Source: an uncultured Planctomycetales bacterium | GTDB lineage: Bacteria > Planctomycetota > Planctomycetia > Isosphaerales > Isosphaeraceae | Assembly (NCBI GenBank): GCA_903926465.1 | Contig: CAIYJE010000067.1 | Coordinates: 124,001 to 188,000 of the forward strand | Direction of reading: 5' to 3' | DNA: 64,000 nucleotides | Notes under the pieces: generated by a model | What the model was told of the DNA's origin: nothing | The model's input: the letters and a program-made list of their open reading frames with translations, nothing else | The model's database searches: none | Translations under genes and position numbers: made by a program | In this document: one piece after another, positions 13,517 to 15,163 of the stretch | Numbering within the stretch: position 1 is the stretch's first letter | Layout: each line of letters begins with the position of its first letter

Positions 13517-14461
13517 TCAATCGCGCATTGCCGCATGGCAGGCCGAGCAGGACTTGCCGATGTTGGCAAGTGAGTCCGAGATCCGGTCTGGGTGTGGTTT
13601 TTCCGTGCCCAAGGCTTTGATAAGTTGCTCGATGGCGGAAATCGTCTCACTGGTCCTCTGGCCGAATTCTCGCTTTTTTTGTGGGTTGGGCTGTGACATT
13701 GATTCGGCTCGACTCGCTTCTTGCAAAGCTTCCAGCAGGAGCTGAGCTTTCCGAGTGGGATCGTGCGCCGCCTCATTCCGTCCGGCTACCAGGTTTTTTT
13801 TGAGCTGGTCGTGAAGTGTGTCAATTTCCACCATCCGCTCCACGAGGTCGGGGACTCTGGCTGTTTCCGGCAGGTCTTCAGGTTTGACGTGGGCCAGTTC
13901 TTCGGGCCCGGGCAGGTTTGCGCGGCAGCCGCTCTGGTAAAGGCCCGGGTAGCGATTGGAGGTTCCCACCTGGAGGAGCCATTGGTTTGCAACCGTTTGC
14001 GACCAGCCAAGTTCGGCACGGGCCAGCAGGGCAGCGGCAGCAGGCCCGCGGTGCTGGCCGTGGTGGCAGTGGATAAAGACTGGGCCTGAACTTTCCTGAA
14101 CGGCGCGTACCAAACGCGCGCTTTGATCTGCGGAAATTCCGTCGTAACCGATGGGCAGATGGACAATTCGCAGGCCCAGTTTTTGGATGGCCGCCACATC
14201 AGGCCGGGCACCATCCACACGGATGATGGTGGCTACGCCGAGCTTCTTGAGTGACTCAAGCCCTTCAATCCCTTCGGGCGTACCACCTGAATACAGGCGA
14301 TTGTCCAGCTTGTAGAGGTGAGAGAGCCCAGGCACTGTCAGTGATTGTCCGGGGCCGGAGCTCGGTTGGGGTTCATCCCAGGCCGCAACTCCGGGGCGGA
14401 AAGCTGCGCAAGTTAAAGTCCAGAGGCTGAATAAGATTGCTAGAGCCGGGGTGCACCGCAT
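13517..14461 (-). CDS. Exported dual-specificity-type phosphatase with C-terminal CxxCH (cytochrome-like) tail
   Basis: A 314-residue exported protein. ATG 14461 opens into a signal-like segment (PALAILFSLWTLTCA). Residues about 45-190 form a cysteine-phosphatase domain: the P-loop HCHHGQHR (131-138) gives C132 and R138 of the CX5R signature, with a possible general-acid region GYDGIS at 106-111. A charged helical linker (205-290) leads to a C-terminal CSACH (305-309), a c-type haem-binding motif at the end of a cytochrome c'-like helix. The gene starts 42 nt beyond the terminator of an initiator tRNA, and its first ~45-50 codons were duplicated upstream. The phosphatase motif is clear; covalent haem attachment is inferred. 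Confidence 0.8.
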   Translation of the reverse strand: MRCTPALAILFSLWTLTCAAFRPGVAAWDEPQPSSGPGQSLTVPGLSHLYKLDNRLYSGGTPEGIEGLESLKKLGVATIIRVDGARPDVAAIQKLGLRIVHLPIGYDGISADQSARLVRAVQESSGPVFIHCHHGQHRGPAAAALLARAELGWSQTVANQWLLQVGTSNRYPGLYQSGCRANLPGPEELAHVKPEDLPETARVPDLVERMVEIDTLHDQLKKNLVAGRNEAAHDPTRKAQLLLEALQEASRAESMSQPNPQKKREFGQRTSETISAIEQLIKALGTEKPHPDRISDSLANIGKSCSACHAAMRD

Positions 14462-14502
14462 GGGGGGTGACCTCAGGTTGATGACTTCCCAAAGCAGAGA
14501 CC

Positions 14503-14530
14503 AAAAAAAGCCCACCTCGAAAGGTGGGCT
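14503..14530 (-). terminator. Intrinsic terminator after tRNA-Met copy A
   Basis: On the minus strand AGCCCACCTT-TCG-AGGTGGGCT is followed by TTTTTT, 3 nt after the tRNA. The same hairpin and T-run follow copy B. Confidence 0.9.
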
Positions 14531-14533
14531 GAA

Positions 14534-14606
14534 TTGCGCCGACAGGAATCGAACCTGCGACCTCCAGGTTATGAGCCTGGCGAGCTAACCGCTGCTCCAC
14601 GGCGCA
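14534..14606 (-). tRNA. Initiator-type tRNA-Met (CAT), copy A
   Basis: A 73-nt cloverleaf: acceptor TGCGCCG/CGGCGCA, D-stem GAGC/GCTC, anticodon stem CCAGG/CCTGG around CTCATAA, T-stem GCAGG/CCTGT with TTCGATT loop, discriminator A, no encoded CCA. The A11:U24 pair and the GGAGCAG...GGTTAGCTCG layout match formyl-methionine initiator tRNA rather than elongator tRNA-Met. It carries a U1:A72 pair where many bacterial initiators have a C1:A72 mismatch, and only two of the usual three consecutive G:C pairs in the anticodon stem (A29:U41). Initiator identity is therefore likely, not certain. Confidence 0.9.
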
Positions 14607-14611
14607 CTTCT

Positions 14612-14640
14612 TTTATACTTGTTCGCCCCTGCTTCGTCAA
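14612..14640 (-). promoter_or_regulatory. Promoter of tRNA-Met copy A
   Basis: On the minus strand TTGACG (14640-14635), a 17-nt spacer and TATAAA (14617-14612), ending 5 nt before the mature tRNA. Near-consensus sigma70-type elements at ideal spacing, conserved in position in copy B. Confidence 0.8.
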
Positions 14641-14664
14641 GATCAATGACCAAGGCTGGGTGCA

Positions 14665-14796
14665 GTTGCGCTGTCAGCGTTAGACAGGGGCCCAAACGGT
14701 TTTGAGCTCATTCCAGACGGCAGATCAGCGGCTGGAGGCAGCGTGAGTCGCGGCTCAAAGGCTAAATAATACCGCGAGATCTGGGGTGCACCGCAT
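14665..14796 (-). pseudogene. Decayed duplicate of the phosphatase gene 5' end
   Basis: Minus strand from ATG 14796 reads MRCTPDLAVLFSL and then a stop, against MRCTPALAILFSLW in the intact gene at 14461. The alignment continues without gaps to codon ~31 (A19-A20, W28 and E30 shared) through stop codons at positions 14 and 24, then with one 1-nt shift through shared AACCG, GGCCCC and CTGACAG blocks. It ends where the promoter of tRNA-Met copy A begins. It cannot encode a protein. Confidence 0.85.
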
Positions 14797-14838
14797 GGGG
14801 GGGTGACCTCAGGTTGATGACTTTCACAAGCATATACC

Positions 14839-14866
14839 AAAAAAAGCCCACCTCGAAAGGTGGGCT
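14839..14866 (-). terminator. Intrinsic terminator after tRNA-Met copy B
   Basis: Same AGCCCACCTT/AGGTGGGCT hairpin and T-run as after copy A, 3 nt after the tRNA. Confidence 0.9.
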
Positions 14867-14869
14867 GAA

Positions 14870-14942
14870 TTGCGCCGACAGGAATCGAACCTGCGACCTC
14901 CAGGTTATGAGCCTGGCGAGCTAACCGCTGCTCCACGGCGCA
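14870..14942 (-). tRNA. Initiator-type tRNA-Met (CAT), copy B
   Basis: Identical over all 73 nt to the copy at 14534-14606, including U1:A72, A11:U24, CAT anticodon and discriminator A. Own promoter and terminator, so both copies are probably transcribed. Confidence 0.9.
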
Positions 14943-14947
14943 CGACG

Positions 14948-14976
14948 AGTGTACTTTTTCACGCCTCTGTCGTCAA
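14948..14976 (-). promoter_or_regulatory. Promoter of tRNA-Met copy B
   Basis: On the minus strand TTGACG (14976-14971), a 17-nt spacer and TACACT (14953-14948), ending 5 nt before the tRNA. The -35 equals that of copy A; the -10 is weaker (TACACT against TATAAA). Confidence 0.75.
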
Positions 14977-15163
14977 GTTTTATTTGAGTTCTTATTCGCG
15001 AATCGAATTCGCAATCGGCTCTTCTTACGCACGAAACGCCTGGAAACTCAGGCTGTTCGCGGGTCCAAAAGATGTTTTCGGCCAAACCGATGTTCCATCA
15101 GAGGTCTCCCCGCGCGGTTAGAATATAGGAACTCTACCCCCGGCTTTCCTGGTGGACCTTGAA

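Follow-up and report, generated by a model that had tools for sequence, protein, structure and literature searches.

Tandem duplication of an initiator tRNA unit and the start of its neighbouring gene in an Isosphaeraceae genome, and a promoter position that may favour leaderless transcription

If two identical tRNA genes lie close together, were they copied along with their surroundings, and what has kept them identical since? This question is raised by the window, that is, the whole stretch of 64,000 nucleotides analysed here, which carries two tRNA-Met(CAU) genes on its minus strand (Table 1). Both genes were detected by ARAGORN and reach 69 bits each with Rfam. They lie 336 bp apart and share 73 of 73 nt, just as the initial annotation had read them. 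The matching terminators and equally placed promoters that it described were also found: the 33 nt 3' of each tRNA, terminator hairpin and T-run included, do not differ between the copies, and both promoter sequences could be recovered at the same distance from the tRNA. Upstream of the tRNAs, 23 of 35 nt match. At the scale of the locus, two direct repeats are present, one 180 nt long (91% identity) with a spacing of 336 and one 102 nt long (71%) with a spacing of 335. In each of the proposed 336-bp units, the outermost ~60 bases (14306-14365 and 14642-14700) have decayed too far for alignment, and the exact breakpoints can only be deduced from this spacing.

Table 1. Features of the duplicated initiator tRNA locus (window coordinates).
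Feature	Position	Strand	Remarks
Upstream repeat unit, approximate extent	14642..14977	(-)	outer ends deduced from 336-bp spacing
Distal-copy promoter TTGACG-17-TACACT	14948..14976	(-)	-10 end to tRNA nt 1 = 5 nt
Initiator tRNA-Met(CAU), gene-distal copy	14870..14942	(-)	A11:U24, A73, U1:A72
Distal-copy intrinsic terminator, followed by T-run	14845..14866	(-)	
40-nt patch around fragment SD/ATG	14783..14822	(-)	p = 6e-5; gene counterpart 14448-14486
Decayed copy of codons 1-33 of the phosphatase gene	14698..14796	(-)	stops at codons 14 and 24
Downstream repeat unit, approximate extent	14306..14641	(-)	outer ends deduced from 336-bp spacing
Proximal-copy promoter TTGACG-17-TATAAA	14612..14640	(-)	-10 end to tRNA nt 1 = 5 nt
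Initiator tRNA-Met(CAU), gene-proximal copy	14534..14606	(-)	same sequence as distal copy
Proximal-copy intrinsic terminator, followed by T-run	14509..14530	(-)	
Intact gene, CX5R (DSP/PTP-like) phosphatase, 314 aa	13517..14461	(-)	motif and weak Pfam matches

The CAU anticodon, a purine 11:pyrimidine 24 pair (A11:U24) and A73 confirmed that both genes encode initiator tRNAs. An elongator tRNA-Met or a tRNA-Ile(CAU) was ruled out by A11:U24, and the elongator Met gene sits on a different contig of the same genome (G000:C141). The C1xA72 mismatch is absent; the window tRNAs have U1:A72, a known minority type, and therefore represent U1:A72-type initiators, not canonical ones. The anticodon stem contains A29:U41, G30:C40 and G31:C39 and thus two, not three, G:C pairs at these positions. 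Such an AGG/CCT stem, with A:U as its first pair, was seen in 83 of the 85 initiators from the remaining Planctomycetia families, as well as in 19 of the 19 Isosphaeraceae initiator sequences examined. Among the tRNAs of the window's own genome, 43 anticodon kinds were found with one tRNA sequence each, except for CAU (initiator and elongator). The initiator is the only tRNA gene found duplicated in this 207-contig assembly, in which tRNA recovery is incomplete. tRNA-Lys(UUU) and tRNA-Ile(CAU) are missing from the recovered set, which probably reflects incompleteness or scoring limits.

We then analysed the spacer between the two tRNA genes, for which a minus-strand reading from 14796, colinear with the phosphatase gene, had been proposed. 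The fragment translates as MRCTPDLAVLFSL-stop-AATHAASSR-stop-SAVWNE versus MRCTPALAILFSLWTLTCAAFRPGVAAWDE in the intact gene, and W28 and E30 are in register with the gene across two stops. In an in-register shuffle test, 67 of 99 nt were identical (z = 9.6), as were 53 of 84 nt in codons 6-33 (z = 7.8) and 36 of 60 nt in codons 14-33 (z = 5.9); none of 20,000 shuffles attained any of these three values. A shuffle test based on gapped local alignment under harsh scoring, which is insensitive past codon 5, gave a z of 1.7, and the in-register test was used instead. Thus, the proposed colinearity was borne out, and the similarity of the two units extends well past tRNA and terminator. The intact gene comprises a CX5R phosphatase motif, with sub-threshold Pfam matches to DSP-PTPase families, while a weak match suggests that its C-terminus is possibly cytochrome c'-like.

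The two units are adjacent, share the same orientation and remain similar in register beyond the RNA. A comparison with relatives, suggested for deciding between one and two ancestral tRNA copies, pointed to G011, which belongs to another genus and is not the closest possible relative of the window genome: in G011, just one initiator tRNA precedes the homologue of the phosphatase gene (39% identical), and both are read in the same direction. Its downstream ORF fragment resembles the next gene of the window's genome, of the PSCyt/DUF1549-DUF1553 type (translation judged by eye). The in-register repeat and the single-tRNA arrangement in G011 support a tandem duplication of the initiator tRNA together with the 5' end of the gene, as originally suggested. 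The simplest history is one tRNA in front of the phosphatase gene, followed by tandem duplication in the window lineage; the single-copy state of G011 could also stem from recombinational loss of one copy. As an explanation of the whole locus, we consider tandem segmental duplication of the tRNA unit and gene start highly probable.

Since tRNA genes are common integration sites, the two genes might instead have separate origins, for instance through independent insertion or through a mobile element that used a tRNA as its attachment site, with the spacer resembling the gene by chance. However, the spacer is in register with the gene to a degree that no shuffle reached, the repeat spans promoter, tRNA, terminator and gene start rather than just the tRNA 3' end, and 263 bp of spacer are too short for an integrase gene. 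The in-register alignment refutes an attachment-site insertion, and we regard separate origins as extremely improbable. An assembly artefact is unlikely as well, because the copies are ~30-40% divergent outside tRNA and terminator and lie within a 252-kb contig.

According to the favoured tandem duplication, a segment of ~336 bp comprising the whole initiator-tRNA transcription unit (promoter, tRNA and terminator) would have been copied along with the beginning of the downstream phosphatase gene, namely its leader and about 40 codons. The intact gene would have remained downstream of the proximal tRNA copy, while the upstream gene piece would have been truncated at birth and subsequently decayed. 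That the duplication is older than the decay of the fragment, as had been claimed, holds trivially for a piece that was already truncated when it arose, and gives no absolute date. Since promoter, full tRNA and terminator are kept in both units, a doubled initiator tRNA dose is the likely outcome. We infer expression of both copies, with dosage as the trait kept by selection.

The window duplication is one of many in Isosphaeraceae and not a one-off. Tandem initiator genes, in two to five copies, were found in 15 of the 32 Isosphaeraceae genomes with at least 90% completeness. The family displays every stage of spacer decay, from a 219-bp spacer repeated without mismatch (G020) through spacers of roughly 70-95% identity (G026, G009, G018, G031 and G028) to unalignable ones (G034, G013 and G036). 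In most of the other Isosphaeraceae arrays mainly intergenic DNA was duplicated, while the window array clearly includes part of a known gene. At least one tandem initiator pair (G053) occurs in other families of the class, with few candidates scored per genome. In G008 and G025 (L077 and L078), the two tandem initiator tRNAs flank an ORF of ~260-316 codons.

The identity of the tRNA copies had been attributed to selection acting on the RNA part only. Among 19 distinct Isosphaeraceae initiator sequences (73 nt), all stem pairs but 1:72 remain standard, and two-sided stem changes occur at 4:69, 5:68, 6:67 and 49:65. The Tautonia-like genomes G008 and G025 each have two different acceptor stems, both internally compensated and in the same order, and these copies therefore persist without conversion. 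The compensatory changes and the stems of G008 and G025 thus support selection on each RNA. 'Only', though, was too strong, because conversion would also keep the copies identical and because a 40-nt patch around the SD/ATG of the fragment is conserved, for which selection on the tRNA gives no explanation. Could the copies then be identical mainly through conversion or unequal recombination between the repeats, and not through selection on each copy? The tRNA-terminator block, which is the longest near-perfect match, and the start-codon patch are each contiguous, the spacer repeat of G020 is perfect, and the five copies within G026 are all identical, as are those within G009. Nevertheless, in the window identity stops at functional boundaries, with promoter region and coding piece ~30-40% diverged, and G008 and G025 retain their distinct, compensated stems. 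We consider a predominant role of conversion possible but rather unlikely.

Within the 40-nt patch, fragment and gene are the same save for one inserted C, a conservation above expectation (p = 6e-5). In addition, 6 of the 8 differences in codons 1-13 fall on third positions, versus 8 of 24 in codons 14-33. Both features would be compatible with a start region that is still functional and not inert, acting for instance as a regulatory element or as a leader of 13 translated codons. But they come from two sequences with small counts and a comparison picked post hoc, a short conversion tract accounts for the patch equally well, and a terminator precedes the fragment. We judge a retained function improbable, and treat the conserved patch and the third-position bias as a lead from these two sequences.

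With regard to known systems, Nilsson et al. reportedly described initiator tRNA gene amplification in 2006 (PNAS 103:6976, cited in PMC9897764), by title in resistant laboratory mutants. As in those mutants, initiator gene number in the window was raised by amplification; unlike there, the amplification is fixed and recurrent in Isosphaeraceae, a lineage with a U1:A72 initiator. P. fluorescens gains copies of serTGA by tandem duplication (Ayan et al. 2020, PMC7661048), and here too a tRNA gene was copied in tandem, the likely benefit being dosage. However, the P. fluorescens cases are laboratory duplications of 45-290 kb, whereas the one in the window is ~336 bp long and old, with only the tRNA unit preserved. 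The duplication itself is an ordinary event of a known type, and represents a well-preserved case of bacterial tRNA copy gain in which a passenger gene fragment evidences the mechanism. It is outweighed in importance by the promoter layout: the initiator-specific promoter position, together with U1:A72, could be the part that is new.

We compared promoter positions among 70 Isosphaeraceae initiator copies. These represent almost every genus of the family, but they include copies from a single array or from sister species and thus do not count as independent. In 62 of the 70 copies, the distance from the end of a TAnnnT motif, accompanied by TT at -34/-33, to tRNA nucleotide 1 was exactly 5 nt, the promoter position of a leaderless tRNA gene; in 6 further copies it was 6 nt. 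Among other tRNAs, the exact 5-nt distance was found for 1 of 43 in the window's genome and for none of 64 from seven relatives (3 of 43 and 0 of 64 for distances of 4-6 nt), and initiators of other families of the class had TAnnnT at 5 nt in 4 of 85 cases. These controls rule out a close -10 box as a general trait of Isosphaeraceae tRNA promoters. With sigma-70, the distance from the -10 box to the start is usually ~6-7 nt, and for a 5-nt spacing this predicts a start at tRNA nucleotide 1, 2 or -1. Transcription of each copy would then begin at, or within ~1 nt of, the mature tRNA 5' end, a prediction from promoter sequence to which we assign roughly even chances.

A leaderless layout is used for all tRNAs of Nanoarchaeum equitans, which is without RNase P and in which the initiator transcript begins with a purine at -1 (PMC10100707). 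As in N. equitans, the Isosphaeraceae promoter appears to be set for a start at the tRNA end, and nucleotide -1 is G in 61% of the initiator copies. Unlike N. equitans, the window's genome contains RNase P RNA (293 bits), and the close promoter is essentially confined to the initiator among the tRNAs examined. Going by titles, the term 'leaderless tRNA' is applied elsewhere to an archaeal pair and to plant organelles, and we found no report of a leaderless bacterial initiator tRNA in the literature searched, mostly open-access papers. We propose that the initiator tRNA, and no other tRNA, may be made with a 5' leader of 0-1 nt and bypass RNase P in Isosphaeraceae, as well as in a few other Planctomycetia where this apparently would have arisen independently, and that the change from C1xA72 to U1:A72 may be tied to this; we see the odds for this combined proposal as evenly balanced. 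If true, a core tRNA would escape RNase P although the bacterium possesses this enzyme, and the rare U1:A72 initiator type would gain an explanation.

How close is the tie between the 1:72 pair and the promoter? T1:A72 was found in 63 of the 70 Isosphaeraceae initiator copies, and the C1 copies mostly had the -10 box at 6 nt. Initiators of other Planctomycetia are mostly C1 (82 C1 versus 3 T1 among 85). Outside Isosphaeraceae, all three T1 initiators (G180, G051 and G120, each carrying A72) had the close box, versus 1 of the 82 C1 initiators (G195; Fisher's test: p = 4e-5). A 15-base pattern searched class-wide for T1 initiators gave mostly unrelated matches, and only loci with an initiator anticodon loop were used. 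In a survey of predicted bacterial initiators, 66 of 4438 (1.4%) had U1:A72, and 5' processing was noted to be impaired by the C1-A72 mismatch (Ardell and Hou 2016, PMC5143459). The window initiator has the same rare pair as this U1:A72 set; that study makes no mention of Planctomycetes and does not treat promoter position, while here U1:A72 accompanies a -10 box at 5 nt. A start at nucleotide 1 would favour U over C at this position, a start at G2 would leave A72 without a partner, and with a start at G-1 the tRNA 5' end would be one base longer. Recurrent amplification of the initiator gene may offset a cost of such an altered tRNA end.

In other classes of the phylum, five initiators (L257-L261) were observed with T1 opposite T72 (T1xT72) and -10-like boxes at 11-19 nt. 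Since these have an ordinary promoter distance, T1 alone does not predict a close promoter. CCA is encoded in four of these five T1xT72 initiators.
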